From NCBI RefSeq assembly GCF_023028105.1, contig NZ_CP095491.1, positions 1,550,001-1,614,000 of the forward strand: DNA of 64,000 nt, written 5' to 3'. This document shows positions 4,596 through 46,425 of this stretch, one piece after another. The DNA comes from Halosolutus gelatinilyticus. Lineage in GTDB: Archaea; Halobacteriota; Halobacteria; Halobacteriales; Natrialbaceae. How positions within the stretch are numbered: the stretch's first letter is position 1; every line of letters starts with the position of its first letter. A program made the translations under genes and the position numbers. Below the pieces are notes generated by a model. The model was given only the letters and a program-made list of their open reading frames with translations. It had not been told where the DNA came from and did no database searches.

Positions 4596-6502
4596 CGTTC
4601 GACCCTCCCGCCGACCCGATCGACGACGACGAAACTCGCGGCGGTGACGACGAGCAGGAGCGTCCCCATGGCGATCGCGGGCCCCGACCGACGTCCGAGG
4701 TAGCGCTCGACGGCCACGGGCATGGTGTAGGTGTCGGCGCCGCCCGCCAAAATCACCGTCGAAGAGAACTCGCCGATCGAGATGGCGAAGGCGAAGGCGG
4801 CGCCGGCGACGATCCCGCTGGCGACGAGCGGGAGTTCGACGTCGACCAGCGCGCGGTAGCGGGAGGCGCCGAGCGCACGGGCCGACTCGACCATGGCCGG
4901 ATCGAGGGCGCCGAGCAGCGGCGAGACGTTTCGGGTGACGAACGGGTACGCCGCCACCGCGTGGGCGGCCACGATCGCGACGGGTCCCGTCACCTGGAGT
5001 CGCCAGCCGCCGGGTAGCGGAATCCCGAAGACGAGTCCCTGCAGGAGGCCGATCCCGAAGACGACCCCGCTGACCGCGAGGGGGAGCATCGCGAGCGCGT
5101 CGACGATCGTTCCCACGCGGCCCGCGCGCGCGGTCGACACCGAGAGGATCACGCCCATCGGCACCGCGATCGCGAGCGTCCCCAGGCCGAACAGCAGCGA
5201 GTTCCGGACGGCCGGGAACGGACGCGTCTGGAACGACTGGCCCTCGACCTGCCGTTCGAGCAGGAACGCGTAGTGGCGAAGCGTGAACCCGCTCCCGTCC
5301 GTGAAACTCCCGATCACGAGGCTCGCCATCGGGCCGACGAAGACCACCAGCGCGACGAGGCCGTAGCCGACGACGGCGAGTCGGCGCGGCGTCAGGGCCG
5401 TCCGCAGGTCCGGGAAGAGCGGCTCCTTCGGCGGCGGGGCGGCCGCCCGCGCCAGTCCCGATCGGGCCGACTCGTAGCGGAGGTAGGCGTAGGTCAGCCC
5501 CAGCGAGACGAGGGTCTCGAGGATCGCGAGGGTCGCGGCTTCGGCGTACGCGAGCCGTCGAATCCGATCGTAGATCCAGACCTCGACGGTCGCCAGCTGG
5601 AGCCCGCCCAGCGCGAGCACGATCGGGAACGTCATGAACGTGAAGACGAACGTCAGCAGCGCGCCCGTGAGGATCGCGGGGAAGAGCTGCGGCGCGATGA
5701 CGTCGAGAAACGCCCGTCGCGGGCTCGCGCCGAGACTGCGGGCGGTTTCGACGGTTCGCACGTCGACGGATTCCCAGGCGGCGACGGTGATCCGGGCGAC
5801 CAGCGGCGCGTTGTAGAAGGCGTGGGCGACGATCACGATCGCCAGCGGATTCCGCTCGATGAACGGGTAGGGGCCGAGCCCGACGAGCCCGAGCAGACCG
5901 TTGATCGTCCCCGTCTGCCCGAACGCGGCGTAGAAGCCGACCGCGACCATGATCCCGGGCAGCACGAACGGCAGGATCGTCAGCGATCGAAGCGTCCGCC
6001 GACCGCGAAACTCGTAGGTCGCGAGCACGTAGGCGGCGGGGAGGCCGAGTGCGACGCTGGCGATCGTCGAGAGCGCCGCCTGGTAGGCCGTAAAGCCGAA
6101 CAGCCCCAGCCGAACGCCGGGGGTCGTCACGCGGAGCCACGGGACCGGCAGCGCGACGTCCGATAGCGGGTACTCGATCGAGAGGGAGACGGAGACCGCC
6201 GCGAGCCAGCCGAAAACGGCGGTCGCGTGGCCCCCGATCGCCAGCGGATCCGAGAAGACGGCCGCCAGCGCGCCGACGTAGAACGGGTCGGTCAGCACCT
6301 CGCGAAACGCCGCGAGCGTCGGCACCCCGTCGACGACGACCGCGTCGACGAAAACGACGCCCACGGGGAGGTAGAGCATGACGACGAGGACGCCGATCGT
6401 CGCGATCCCGGCCAGGGCGAGCGCGCGGCGTTCGAACCAGGCCCGGCCGCCGGCGACGACCGCGGCCGCGGCGACGTCGGCGCGTCGATCCGCGCGGGTC
6501 AC
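4592..6502 (-). CDS. Thiamine-type ABC transporter permease (fused two-domain, ThiP-like)
   Basis: 636 residues with about 12 predicted membrane helices. Two copies of the permease EAA loop are visible: TVETARSLGASPRRAFLDVIAPQLF in the first half and MVESARALGASRYRALVDVELPLV in the second, each followed by G-rich helix text. One chain therefore supplies both halves of the channel, as in ThiP/FbpB. It starts with GTG 4 nt after the binding-protein stop and overlaps the ATPase start. An internal proline-rich linker (ARAAAPPPKEPLFPDL) separates the halves. Confidence 0.9.
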   Translation of the reverse strand: MTRADRRADVAAAAVVAGGRAWFERRALALAGIATIGVLVVMLYLPVGVVFVDAVVVDGVPTLAAFREVLTDPFYVGALAAVFSDPLAIGGHATAVFGWLAAVSVSLSIEYPLSDVALPVPWLRVTTPGVRLGLFGFTAYQAALSTIASVALGLPAAYVLATYEFRGRRTLRSLTILPFVLPGIMVAVGFYAAFGQTGTINGLLGLVGLGPYPFIERNPLAIVIVAHAFYNAPLVARITVAAWESVDVRTVETARSLGASPRRAFLDVIAPQLFPAILTGALLTFVFTFMTFPIVLALGGLQLATVEVWIYDRIRRLAYAEAATLAILETLVSLGLTYAYLRYESARSGLARAAAPPPKEPLFPDLRTALTPRRLAVVGYGLVALVVFVGPMASLVIGSFTDGSGFTLRHYAFLLERQVEGQSFQTRPFPAVRNSLLFGLGTLAIAVPMGVILSVSTARAGRVGTIVDALAMLPLAVSGVVFGIGLLQGLVFGIPLPGGWRLQVTGPVAIVAAHAVAAYPFVTRNVSPLLGALDPAMVESARALGASRYRALVDVELPLVASGIVAGAAFAFAISIGEFSSTVILAGGADTYTMPVAVERYLGRRSGPAIAMGTLLLVVTAASFVVVDRVGGRVER

Positions 6503-6506
6503 GGCG

Positions 6507-7631
6507 CTACTGGCTCGCGAACTCGCGCGCCCAGTCGTCGACCCACCCGTCGAGGTTGCCCCGGAGCCGATCGTACTCCATCGTCACGGCTTCCGGCGGT
6601 TCGTGGGCGTACCGGTCGAACTCGGGATCGAGTTCGACGTGCTCCGACGCGACCGCGGGGAACTGGACGTTTCGCTGGGCGATCTCGGCCTGGGCGTCGC
6701 TCGACAGGACGAAATTCACGAACTCGTAGGCGAGATCGATCTTCGTCGCGCGATCGAAGATCGCCATTCCCTCGGGATTCGCGTAGCCCTGGTCGTTCAG
6801 GAACGCGACCTGGTGGCGGCTCATGTCGTAGCCCTCGGCCGAGGCGAACACCTGATCGGTCGAGTACGAGACGATCATCGACCGCTGACCCTCCATGTAA
6901 GCGCCGTAGTACGACTCGTACCAGTCGTCGAGGACGCGAACGCCGTTGTCCGCGAGCTCGCGCCAGTAGTCGAGGTAGCCGTCCTCGCCGAAGGCGTCGA
7001 TCGTCCACAGCAGGAACGCCTGTCCGGGATCGGAGTTCTGGGCGTTCTGGGTGAGCAGCGCGTTCTCGTACGCGGGCGCGGTGAGATCGTCGAACGTCGT
7101 CGGTTCGTCGACCTCGGTCTCGTCGTAGACGAGGCTGATGTAGCCCGTGTCGTAGGGAAGCACGCGGCCGTGCGGGTCGCCCATCTCGAGGCCATTGCGG
7201 ATCCGATCGGCGCGCCCGATCCGATCGAGGTTGAGTTCGCGAAAGAGTCCGCCGTCGTCCAGCGCGTCGTCGATCCGGGCGAGGTCGTCGACGTTGACGC
7301 CGAGGTAGACGTCGGCGTCCAGGTCGGCCTCCTCCTGCTCGCGCCGGATGTAGTGGTTGAGCCCCGATTCCGGGACGGTCCACGTGAGCTCGGCGTCCGG
7401 ATGCGCCTCCTCGAACGCCTCCTTGAGCCACGTCCCGGCGGGGTTCTCGTCGTCGACCATCGACTCGTAGGTGGCGACGATCAACTCGCCGCTGAGATCC
7501 GGCTCTTCGGGTTCGGGATCCCCCGGTTCCGTGCCGTTTTCCGGACCGTCGTCTCCGTCGCGGGTCACGCAGCCGGCCAGTCCGGCGACCGCGCCGCCGC
7601 CGACCGCGCCGACGAACGTCCGTCGTTTCAT
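6507..7631 (-). CDS. Thiamine-type ABC transporter substrate-binding lipoprotein (ThiB/TbpA family)
   Basis: 374 residues. The N-terminus MKRRTFVGAVGGGAVAGLAGC combines a twin-arginine-like start with a lipobox (LAGC, Cys21), followed by an acidic D/E/P/G linker, so it should be exported and lipid-anchored. The body fits the thiamine-binding family: GELIVATYESMV, LDADVYLGVNVDDLARI, LPYDTGYISLVYDE, and YANPEGMAIFDRATK...AYEFVNFVLSSDAQ. The substrate is inferred from family resemblance; iron(III)-binding proteins are the nearest alternative. It is the first gene of the operon and has a TATA box directly upstream. Confidence 0.85.
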   Translation of the reverse strand: MKRRTFVGAVGGGAVAGLAGCVTRDGDDGPENGTEPGDPEPEEPDLSGELIVATYESMVDDENPAGTWLKEAFEEAHPDAELTWTVPESGLNHYIRREQEEADLDADVYLGVNVDDLARIDDALDDGGLFRELNLDRIGRADRIRNGLEMGDPHGRVLPYDTGYISLVYDETEVDEPTTFDDLTAPAYENALLTQNAQNSDPGQAFLLWTIDAFGEDGYLDYWRELADNGVRVLDDWYESYYGAYMEGQRSMIVSYSTDQVFASAEGYDMSRHQVAFLNDQGYANPEGMAIFDRATKIDLAYEFVNFVLSSDAQAEIAQRNVQFPAVASEHVELDPEFDRYAHEPPEAVTMEYDRLRGNLDGWVDDWAREFASQ

Positions 7632-42120: not shown

Positions 42121-44598
42121 CTAGCCGATGTACTCGCTACCGATCACGTCGCGAATCCGCTCGGCGGTCACCTGCCCGACGCCGTCAGCCTCCTGTAGCT
42201 CCCCTTCGGTCGCGATCATCACCGCCTCGACGGTGCCGAACTCTTCGAGCAGCGATCGCGCCGTCACGGGACCGATCTCGGCGATCGAGGAGACGACGTA
42301 CTCCTGCTGTTCGGCCAGCGTCTTCGACTGCTTCTCGCCGTGGACCGACACCTCCCGATCGCTCAACTCCTGTTCGCGGCCGGCGATCACCGCGAGCAGT
42401 TCGGTGGTGTCCGCCTCGTCCTCGGTTCGGAGGAGGCTCGCGCCGAAGTCGACCGCCAGGCTCGACAGCGCCCCGCGTACCGCGTTCGGGTGGACGTCCC
42501 GCTGTTCGTACAGCCCGTCGCCCTCGACGACCACGATCGGCCGCGAGTAGTGCCGTGCCATCGCGCCGACCTGCTCGAAGATCGATCGGTCGCTCCCGAC
42601 GAGCGAGTCGACGAAGTCCGCGACAGACTTGCGCTCGACGACGACCCGATCGGAGCAGACGTAGTCGCCCACGTCCAGCGTCTCGAGGCGAACCTCGATC
42701 TCCTCGCGACGCGAGAGGTCGCGAGCGATGTTGGCGTCCATCTCGCGCTGGTCGGCGACGATCTCGACCGCATCGCCCTCGGCGTGCGGGACGGGCGTCT
42801 CGACGTCCCCGTCATCCTCGACAGCTTCGCCGTCCTGGTCCGCTCCGTCGTTCGGTCCGCCGTCCACGTCGGTACCCGATTCCGAGTGAGAACTTCCGAA
42901 CTCCTGCAACCCGGGTTGATTCGAAACCCCCTCGTTTCCGCTGGAATACTCGTTTCCGTCGTGCGATTTCCCACCGTTGCTCTCTACTTCCGCTCCGGTA
43001 TCGAACGCGGCGAGCGACTGCTGGGCGGCGTCGAGTTCCTGCTCGATCTCGTCGGCCATCCCCTTCAGTTCGCGCAGTTCCGACTCCATCTCCTTCTCGC
43101 GGCGGCGGGAGATCCAGAAGTACGCCTCGTCGCGGGTGTCCTCGGCCATGAGGACGACGACGCGACCCTCGGACTGGCGGCCCGTCCGACCCTTGCGCTG
43201 GATCGATCGGATCGCTGTCGGAACGGGTTCGTAGAACAGGACGAGGTCGACCTCCGGCACGTCCAGGCCCTCCTCGGCGACGGACGTCGAGACGAGGACC
43301 TCGAACTCGCCGGCCCGGAAGTCGTCGAGCACTTCCTGTTGTTGCTTCTGGGTCATCCCGTCGGAGCCCTCGCGATCGCCCTGGCCGACGAACCGTTTCG
43401 CGTCGAAGCTCTCCGAGAGGAAGTCCGTCAGCGCCTCCGCCGTGTCGCGGGACTCGGTGAAGACGATGACGCGATCGCCGCCGTCGAGGCCCAGGGTCTC
43501 GGCGAGGAGCATCCGCGCCTTGCGGTACTTCGGGTGCAACTCGTCGAAGTTCTCGGCGTTTCGCATGGCCTCGCGAACCCGCGGGTCGGAGACCATTCGC
43601 TGGCTGGCCTTCGAGGCGCCGGACGATCGGGCCTGGTTGCGCTGGCGATCGAAGTACCGTCGCAGCGCCTCGACGCTCTGCGTTTCGACGAGGGTGACGG
43701 CCTGGCGGAGCTTCATCACCTCCGCGTGGACGGACATCCCCTTGAACCCCTCCGACTGGTCGTTGTTGATCAGTTGCTGGAGTTCCGCGCGCATCCGGTT
43801 CAAGTCCTTCTGGGACTGGTCGGGCTGAGTCGATTTGGCCACTCCGAGCTCTTTTAGCTTCTCCAGGCGGTCTTTGATCACCTCGTTCAGCGCGTCCCGG
43901 ATCTCCAGCACCTCGTCGGGGAGGTCGATGCGCTCCCACTCGACGTCGGTGTCGTGAGTGAACTCCGAGACGTCGGCGTCCTCCTCGGTCATCACCTCGA
44001 CTTCCTGGAGGCCGAGGTTTTCACAGACTTCGAGGATCGCCTCCTCGTCGCCGCCGGGGGAGGCCGACATGCCCGTCACGAGCGGCTCGCGGGCGTCGGC
44101 GTGGTAGCGCTCGGCGATGTAGTTGTACGCGTAGTCGCCGGTCGCTCGGTGACACTCGTCGAACGTGACGTGCGTGACGTCGGCCAGCGAGAGCCGGCTC
44201 CCCACCAGATCGTTCTCGATCACCTGCGGCGTGGCCATCACGACCGTCGCCTCGTCCCACAGTTCGGCCCGATCGTCCGGGCTGACGTCGCCCGTGAAGA
44301 CGACGATCTCCTCGTCCGAGATCTGCAACGCTTCGCGGTAGAAGTCCGCGTGCTGCTGGACGAGCGGCTTCGTGGGGGCGAGCATCAGCGACTTCCCGCC
44401 GACCTCGTCGAGGCGCCGCGCCGTCACGAGCAGGCTCACGGTCGTCTTCCCCAACCCCGTCGGAAGACAGACGAGCGTGTGGTGGTTCGCGGCCGTTCCG
44501 GCGAGTTTCAACTGGTAGAGTCGGCGCTCGAGGAAGTCGGGTGCGAGCAGCGGATGCTCGATCGTCGGCTGGCTCCCGTCCTCGTCCGTCGCTGCCAT
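42121..44598 (-). CDS. hef: Hef helicase-nuclease
   Basis: 825 residues, the archaeal XPF/FANCM-like protein that processes stalled forks. Helicase half: HHTLVCLPTGLGKTT (Walker A), VTFDECHRATGDYAY (DECH box), MSASPGG, DRVIVFTESRDTAEALTDF, VLVSTSVAEEGLDVPEVDLV and QRKGRTGRQ. A D/G/S-rich linker (about 535-610) follows. Nuclease half: LDVGDYVCSDRVVVERKSVADFVDSLVG with the ERKxxxD motif, then tandem HhH (EIGPVTARSLLEEFGTVEAV and ADGVGQVTAERIRDVI). All parts are intact. Confidence 0.96.
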   Translation of the reverse strand: MAATDEDGSQPTIEHPLLAPDFLERRLYQLKLAGTAANHHTLVCLPTGLGKTTVSLLVTARRLDEVGGKSLMLAPTKPLVQQHADFYREALQISDEEIVVFTGDVSPDDRAELWDEATVVMATPQVIENDLVGSRLSLADVTHVTFDECHRATGDYAYNYIAERYHADAREPLVTGMSASPGGDEEAILEVCENLGLQEVEVMTEEDADVSEFTHDTDVEWERIDLPDEVLEIRDALNEVIKDRLEKLKELGVAKSTQPDQSQKDLNRMRAELQQLINNDQSEGFKGMSVHAEVMKLRQAVTLVETQSVEALRRYFDRQRNQARSSGASKASQRMVSDPRVREAMRNAENFDELHPKYRKARMLLAETLGLDGGDRVIVFTESRDTAEALTDFLSESFDAKRFVGQGDREGSDGMTQKQQQEVLDDFRAGEFEVLVSTSVAEEGLDVPEVDLVLFYEPVPTAIRSIQRKGRTGRQSEGRVVVLMAEDTRDEAYFWISRRREKEMESELRELKGMADEIEQELDAAQQSLAAFDTGAEVESNGGKSHDGNEYSSGNEGVSNQPGLQEFGSSHSESGTDVDGGPNDGADQDGEAVEDDGDVETPVPHAEGDAVEIVADQREMDANIARDLSRREEIEVRLETLDVGDYVCSDRVVVERKSVADFVDSLVGSDRSIFEQVGAMARHYSRPIVVVEGDGLYEQRDVHPNAVRGALSSLAVDFGASLLRTEDEADTTELLAVIAGREQELSDREVSVHGEKQSKTLAEQQEYVVSSIAEIGPVTARSLLEEFGTVEAVMIATEGELQEADGVGQVTAERIRDVIGSEYIG

Positions 44599-44712: not shown

Positions 44713-45140
44713 TTACCAGTCGCTGTACTCCGACAGCAGGGCCACTCGTTCCGATCGACCCAACCGCTCGTACGCCCGCGTTTCGTAGTCGAGCGAGAGG
44801 ACAGGAATACCAACCCCGTCGACGACCGTTCGGTGGTCGGTCACGTCGATCGGTTCCTCCCACGTGCCGTCGTTCCGGCGCTTCTGGAGCGCGCCCATGA
44901 TCTCGACCCGAACGCCGTCGAGATCGAGCGCCCCGAAGTGCGATCGGATCGCCGCCGACTCCGAGAACGAGACCGGTCGACGACCCGCTCCGAAAACGCG
45001 GCTTCGATCGCATACGCGCCCTCTTCGGTCGCCTGGCCGTCGATATCGTTCGGCGTCAGCGGAACGCCCTGGAGCGCGAAACTCGTGCTTCCGGTGAGCG
45101 CCCACGTCGCGTCGCAGTCGTCGTTCGCGTCGACGATCGT
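44713..45140 (-). pseudogene. Broken minimal nucleotidyltransferase gene (5' end lost, one-base frameshift)
   Basis: Two reading frames on the minus strand join into one protein. Upstream, from about 45137 to 44976: IVDANDDCDATWALTGSTSF, ALQGVPLTPNDID and AYAIEAAFSERVVD, carrying the GS...DxD core of a minimal nucleotidyltransferase. Downstream, from 44976 to the TAA at 44713: PVSFSESAAIRSHFGALDLDG, VRVEIMGALQKRRNDGTWEEP and VPVLSLDYETRAYERLGR-like text. The switch is explained by loss of one C (GACCCGG to GACCGG, near 44973-44976). No start codon exists upstream: the text becomes the antisense of a permease fragment. It is probably dead. Confidence 0.72.
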
Positions 45141-45143
45141 CGA
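45130..45143. repeat. 14-bp perfect palindrome at the junction of the two broken genes
   Basis: TCGACGATCGTCGA equals its own reverse complement. Homology to the nucleotidyltransferase ends and homology to the permease begins within it, so it marks the deletion joint. Confidence 0.6.
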
Positions 45144-45741
45144 GCGGCGAACGAGCGGTGCGCTCACCGTCGTCCTCGGGTTGCCGCTCTCCCGGCGCGA
45201 GGTCGTCCTCGGAACGTTCCTCGGCCGGAGCATCATCATTTCGACGGCGGTCGTCGCCTCGATGCTCGTCGCCGTGCCGGTCGGCCTGGTGCTGGGCGTG
45301 ACGGTCGACCCGACCAGACTCGTCGGTGTCGCGATAGTGCTTGCCCTGTTCGGCGTTACCTGTACCGCCCTCGCCGTCGCCATCTCGGCCGTCGTTCGAA
45401 CGACGACGCGGGCGACGGTCGCCGCGTTCGGGGTCTTCGTTCTCTGTTACTTCCAGCTGTGGGATTCGATCCCGCAGACCGCCCTGTACGTCCGGCACGG
45501 CTTTTCGTTCCCCGAGACGACGCCGGAGTGGGTACCGTTCGTGTCGGCGCTGAATCCGGTCGCCGCCTACACGCACCTGCTCTCGGGGCTGTTCCCCGAC
45601 CTCAACCCGGCGACGTTCGTCAGTCCGCCGTCAGAGCCGGCGGTCTATCAGGAACCGGCGTTCGCACTCGTCGTGCTCGGCGGGTGGATCGCCGCCGCGA
45701 TGGGGGTCGGTTACTGGCGGTTCCGGGCGACCGACCTCTAG
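45142..45741 (+). pseudogene. 5'-truncated ABC-2 type permease fragment
   Basis: About 200 codons: ERRTSGALTVVLGLPLSRREVVLGTFLGRS is the cytoplasmic loop that follows the second helix in NosY-like ABC-2 permeases. It is followed by four to five intact helices (IIISTAVVASMLVAVPVGLVLGV; IVLALFGVTCTALAVAISAVV; TVAAFGVFVLCYFQLW; FALVVLGGWIAAAMGVGYWRF) and a normal ending. The N-terminal 80-90 residues with the first helices are missing; the in-frame text upstream is the antisense of the nucleotidyltransferase fragment. No partner ATPase gene is near. It is likely a remnant. Confidence 0.7.
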
Positions 45742-45742
45742 C

Positions 45743-46333
45743 TCAGACGGGCCCGAACTCGATCGCAAGCCAGGCGAGCACGCCGGCGTAGATCGGGATC
45801 GTCAGGTTGTCGTCGACGATGTACTCGCCGATCGAGAGCGTCACGCCGTCGGCGATCGTCGCGCCGAGCGCGGCGGCGACGACGGCGAGGGGGTGCTCGG
45901 AGAGAAAGGGTGCGGCGAGCGCGGCGCTCACGACGAACATCGTGCCGAACACTTTCGGCCCCTTAAACCGCTTGAGCGTGTCGTCCGAGACCGCGCCGCT
46001 GATCGGGTCGCCGATCGCGAGCATCAACATTGCGGGGAGGGCGACCACGTCGGGAAAGAGCAGCACGACGATCGTCATGCTGACCATGTAGTAGCCGTAG
46101 CCGGCGAACTGGTCCTGTTCGTACTCCCGGGTCAGTTTGTCGTAGATCGACCAGTCGAGGCCGACGCGCAGTCGGAGGAACTCGAGACCGATCGCTCCGA
46201 GCGCGAGGACCACCATCAGAACCTGAAACCGTCGCCAGGTGAGACCGAGATCGAACCAGTTCGCGAGCAGATAGAGGGCGACCAGTCCAGATCCACTCGC
46301 GTGTACCAGTCGTCGCTTCAATTCGTCGGCCAT
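45743..46333 (-). CDS. Diacylglycerol/polyprenol kinase-like (CTP-dependent) membrane protein
   Basis: 196 residues, about six membrane helices. Family text of the dolichol kinase/phosphatidate cytidylyltransferase group: DELKRRLVHASGSGLVALYLL, then LMLAIGDPISGAVSD (GDPxSxxxG), GPKVFGTMFVVSAALAAPF and GATIADGVTLSIGEYIVDDNLTIPIYAGVLAWL. It probably phosphorylates a polyprenol or related lipid with CTP. The ATG at 46333 is chosen; the codon before it is GTG. Its stop lies 1 nt from the end of the permease remnant. Confidence 0.85.
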   Translation of the reverse strand: MADELKRRLVHASGSGLVALYLLANWFDLGLTWRRFQVLMVVLALGAIGLEFLRLRVGLDWSIYDKLTREYEQDQFAGYGYYMVSMTIVVLLFPDVVALPAMLMLAIGDPISGAVSDDTLKRFKGPKVFGTMFVVSAALAAPFLSEHPLAVVAAALGATIADGVTLSIGEYIVDDNLTIPIYAGVLAWLAIEFGPV

Positions 46334-46425
46334 CACCGAACATCTCGAAAGACGATCCCTTGAGTCCGTCGGTTACCGCTGGCGACGTTCGATCGGCGGG
46401 AGACCCCGTCACCGAGATCGAACCG

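Follow-up and report, generated by a model that had tools for sequence, protein, structure and literature searches.

A probable 2.2-kb deletion joined the remnants of two divergent genes between Hef and a DolK-like gene in Halosolutus gelatinilyticus

Haloferax volcanii, which is without Ku, repairs breaks by microhomology-mediated end joining, and the products carry deletions (PMC7776575). The locus described here is likewise found in a haloarchaeal host and has two points joined without a repeat, but differs from end joining in H. volcanii (PMC7776575) in that no microhomology is visible against the available relatives, and in that we infer the event rather than observe it directly. The site also resembles prokaryotic pseudogenes that result from truncating deletions or frameshifts: 5´ ends are lost, a frameshift is present, the neighbours are conserved, and the orthologues are intact in relatives. 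Unlike the usual case, one joint breaks two genes here. One of the remnants corresponds to the C-terminal three quarters of the permease of an ABC-2 exporter pair (PF00005 ATPase and PF12679 permease), but the ATPase and the N-terminal part of the permease are absent.

The window is a stretch of 64 kb from the 3.9-Mb main contig (G000:C1:1550001-1614000). Two genomes from the same genus, G001 and G002, were used for comparison, and the corresponding locus in G002 is L028. The features of the site, with the evidence for each, are:

42121..44598, minus strand: Hef helicase/nuclease gene, intact, the conserved left-hand neighbour (open reading frame, profile match, tblastn).
44713..45123, minus strand: remnant nucleotidyltransferase (NTase) pseudogene of the PF10706 family, with the first 19 codons gone and a 1-nt frameshift near 44975 (PF10706 in two frames, tblastn).
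44975..44976, minus strand: position at which the NTase has lost 1 nt, GG versus GGG in L028 (window compared with L028 4960-4978, AGACCGGGTCGACGACCCG; frame switch).
45123..45124, no strand: probable deletion joint, NTase-derived to the left and permease-derived to the right, with approximately 2,225 bp missing (G002/L028 5115-7339; base-by-base match table with best breakpoint, BLAST blocks).
45124..45741, plus strand: remaining 3´ part of an ABC-2 permease gene (PF12679), keeping residues 75-279 out of 279 and free of internal stops (profile match, alignment to relatives).
45130..45143, no strand: 14-bp palindrome TCGACGATCGTCGA, ordinary permease codons and no junction element (perfect palindrome, alignment to relatives).
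45743..46336, minus strand: gene for a DolK-like membrane protein, intact, the conserved right-hand neighbour (DolK is a working label; no Pfam match).

The intact arrangement is seen in G002, where the order is Hef (minus), NTase (minus, PF10706), TspO (plus, PF03073), ABC ATPase (plus, PF00005), ABC-2 permease (plus, PF12679, 279 aa), DolK-like (minus), and GlyS (minus). NTase and permease are both whole in this genome and are already divergent neighbours, with TspO and ATPase between them, so that alignment to relatives did recover, as the original prediction proposed, complete copies of the two genes separated by extra DNA. The ATPase-permease pair also lies beside DolK in G016, G022, G029, G033, G009, G021, and G036 and at loci L041, L056, L058 (apparently the same genome as G021), L059, and L091. 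Since the pair with DolK thus recurs across other Natrialbaceae, it is most simply older than the genus of the window. Homologue searches with the DolK-like neighbour returned close relatives nearly all from the Natrialbaceae, and an NTase at the Hef-DolK interval was seen only in the genus of the window.

Compared with G002, the window locus is missing the first 19 codons of the NTase, the whole of TspO, the whole of the ATPase, and the first 74 codons of the permease. Alignment to intact relatives begins at residue 20 in the NTase and at residue 75 in the permease. Two divergent genes without their 5´ ends had been predicted, and this is what we find, but the joint is at 45123|45124 rather than at 45137 and 45142. 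Window position 45123 corresponds to L028 5114 and 45124 to L028 7340, flanks that are set apart by 2,225 bp in G002. The bases at 45118-45123 are NTase-type (matching 2/2 NTase relatives), and those at 45124-45125 are permease-type (11/11 permease relatives agree and 0/2 NTase). Both sides are gene-derived with no extra sequence at the joint, which would also fit an insertion element that was precisely excised. The parental flanks (NTase TCGTCG|AG; permease TTCT|TTCGC) share 0 bp, but G002 is approximately 20% divergent here and the true parents may have shared a few bases.

The missing DNA was sought throughout the window's genome. TspO gave no match in a whole-genome search, a result that is meaningful because the same query finds TspO in both G001 and G002. 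The permease N-terminus (first 83 residues) likewise gave no match in a whole-genome search, the positive control covering the TspO query only. For the ATPase, the search gave only paralogues, the best at 51–56% identity, whereas family orthologues are 71–82% identical to the G002 ATPase. The 2,225 extra bases of G002, not found elsewhere, speak for the predicted loss of a shared promoter region together with both 5´ ends in one deletion, but the loss was larger and extended to the TspO and ATPase genes.

We consider it very probable that one deletion of approximately 2.2 kb left this scar, with end joining as the likely route and a decaying stump on each side. The deletion would have fused NTase codon 20, in antisense, to permease codon 75, most likely when a broken chromosome was repaired by end joining that used little base pairing at the joint, or none. 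We infer a single event; more than one step, e.g. with TspO lost first, is possible.

An alternative route is recombination between repeats, with either the palindrome or a 13-bp direct repeat as the recombining sequence. The direct repeat, CGCGATCGTCGAG, stands in G002 near both breakpoints (at 5104 in the NTase and at 7348 in the permease), and the window palindrome includes part of it. A perfect 14-bp palindrome, TCGACGATCGTCGA, is indeed present at 45130-45143, but it adjoins the joint rather than coinciding with it, starting 6 bp to the right and lying wholly within permease coding sequence. Another genus reads TCGACGCTCGTCGA at this position, and locus L030 (G016), which has a full permease, carries the near-identical TTCGCGTCGACGCTCGTCGAG at the same codons without any deletion. 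The exact 14-mer occurs four times in the genome, and perfect palindromes of this length or longer are at the level of chance in the window (19 versus 16.6 ± 3.8 expected from first-order Markov simulations). The palindrome was for these reasons rejected as a recombination site. Recombination at the 13-mer would leave one copy and none of the permease sequence that lies 5´ of the copy in the permease, yet the window retains such sequence, TTCGCGTCGACG (45124-45135), as L030 does, together with the corresponding NTase bases. The 13-bp repeat is therefore not the joining site: one repeat copy exactly at the joint was sought and not found, the joint being 19 bp off the 13-mer. The idea that the 14-mer would flank the extra DNA is likewise not supported: the 14-mer is not a joint element, and the 13-bp repeat that does lie near the G002 breakpoints was not used. 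We thus give recombination between repeats very little credence. Displacement of the missing 5´ ends by inversion or translocation is the least credible of all: an inversion between two genes of the same orientation does also yield two 3´ remnants head to head, but NTase and permease are already divergent neighbours in G002, and TspO and the permease N-terminus are unmatched elsewhere in the genome.

It is also conceivable, but very unlikely, that homologous recombination with another lineage replaced the block from the permease stump onwards, making the joint the edge of this block. The right flank does recombine, as seen from the window DolK, which does not share a clade with the G001 and G002 proteins. 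Against this, the donor would need an identical permease truncation, and the DNA of the permease remnant is nearest to G002 (78.5% identity, compared with at most 75% for other loci that cover the whole remnant; support for the pairing in the DNA tree is only 70/92), so that a replaced block probably starts further to the right. A Natronorubrum-like donor, for which the DolK tree gave a hint and the permease DNA tree none, was rejected. Finally, the short permease could belong to a working, naturally short family, which we find hardly plausible. Its frame is open and without stops, and its branch and the G002 branch have similar dN/dS, but the other syntenic relatives are all full length except for one independent stump (L054), and the partner ATPase is gone.

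Returning to the deletion as the preferred reading, both stumps are probably decaying pseudogenes that have lost their function. In the NTase, the two halves of the PF10706 match are split over two reading frames, and in tblastn with the G001 NTase, residues 20–64 and 69–156 fall in different frames. With this 1-nt frameshift on top of the lost 5´ end, the NTase is, judged by sequence, a pseudogene twice over. It does not begin in mid-domain as was first thought, with only 19 codons gone and the PF10706 match starting at profile position 4 of 149. The frameshift near 44975 was missing from the original prediction. For the permease, a probable loss of function is indicated by the missing start, the missing N-terminal part, and the missing ATPase, and the window locus does not have the complete permease and ATPase of a functional ABC-2 exporter. 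The open frame and near-normal dN/dS count against such a loss, but are consistent with a fairly recent one. Relaxed selection on the stump was considered but not adopted: dN/dS is uninformative, with dN only slightly higher on the window branch (approximately 0.10) than on the G002 branch (approximately 0.08, with most outgroups). The site is a small case of ordinary gene decay in which a palindrome beside the joint can mislead, with little significance beyond annotation: gene callers may label the stumps as NTase and permease where the genome has in fact lost an exporter and the adjoining TspO.

Losses at the same interval recur in other Natrialbaceae. Between Hef and DolK, TspO stands alone in many genomes, and in others both TspO and the exporter are absent. 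In G001, TspO is kept and the ATPase and permease are absent from this place, and a gene for a PIN-domain (VapC-like) protein adjoins TspO. Natronorubrum halalkaliphilum (L054) has permease residues 174–279 only, a separate truncation, and in Halopiger djelfimassiliensis (L044:7091-7419) TspO survives between DolK and Hef only as a pseudogene of two short fragments, having lost an internal part. One could speculate that the TspO/ABC-2 exporter module has a loss hot spot here, with repeated and independent events selected for in some habitats, but we regard this as rather unlikely. Module losses were also counted by parsimony on the Hef tree, but we do not rely on this count, because many module-bearing loci have no full-length Hef within the stretch retrieved and so do not appear in the tree.

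Some further observations were made in the flanks and in relatives. The window DolK-like protein (45743-46336) is in a well-supported clade apart from G001 and G002, yet Hef groups all three; the two gene trees suggest that homologous recombination replaced the right-hand flank in one of the lineages. In L054 (7160-7660), a GACATCCTCCCCGC...hairpin sequence lies at approximately 160 bp from the permease stump and resembles the end of an IS200/IS605-type element; this IS-like end is not near the window joint. In G002 (L028:5419-5556), a VapC-like PIN protein is reduced to its 47 C-terminal residues; the protein is longer in G001 (L029:5754-6173) and is also present at the same place in L050 and L065.
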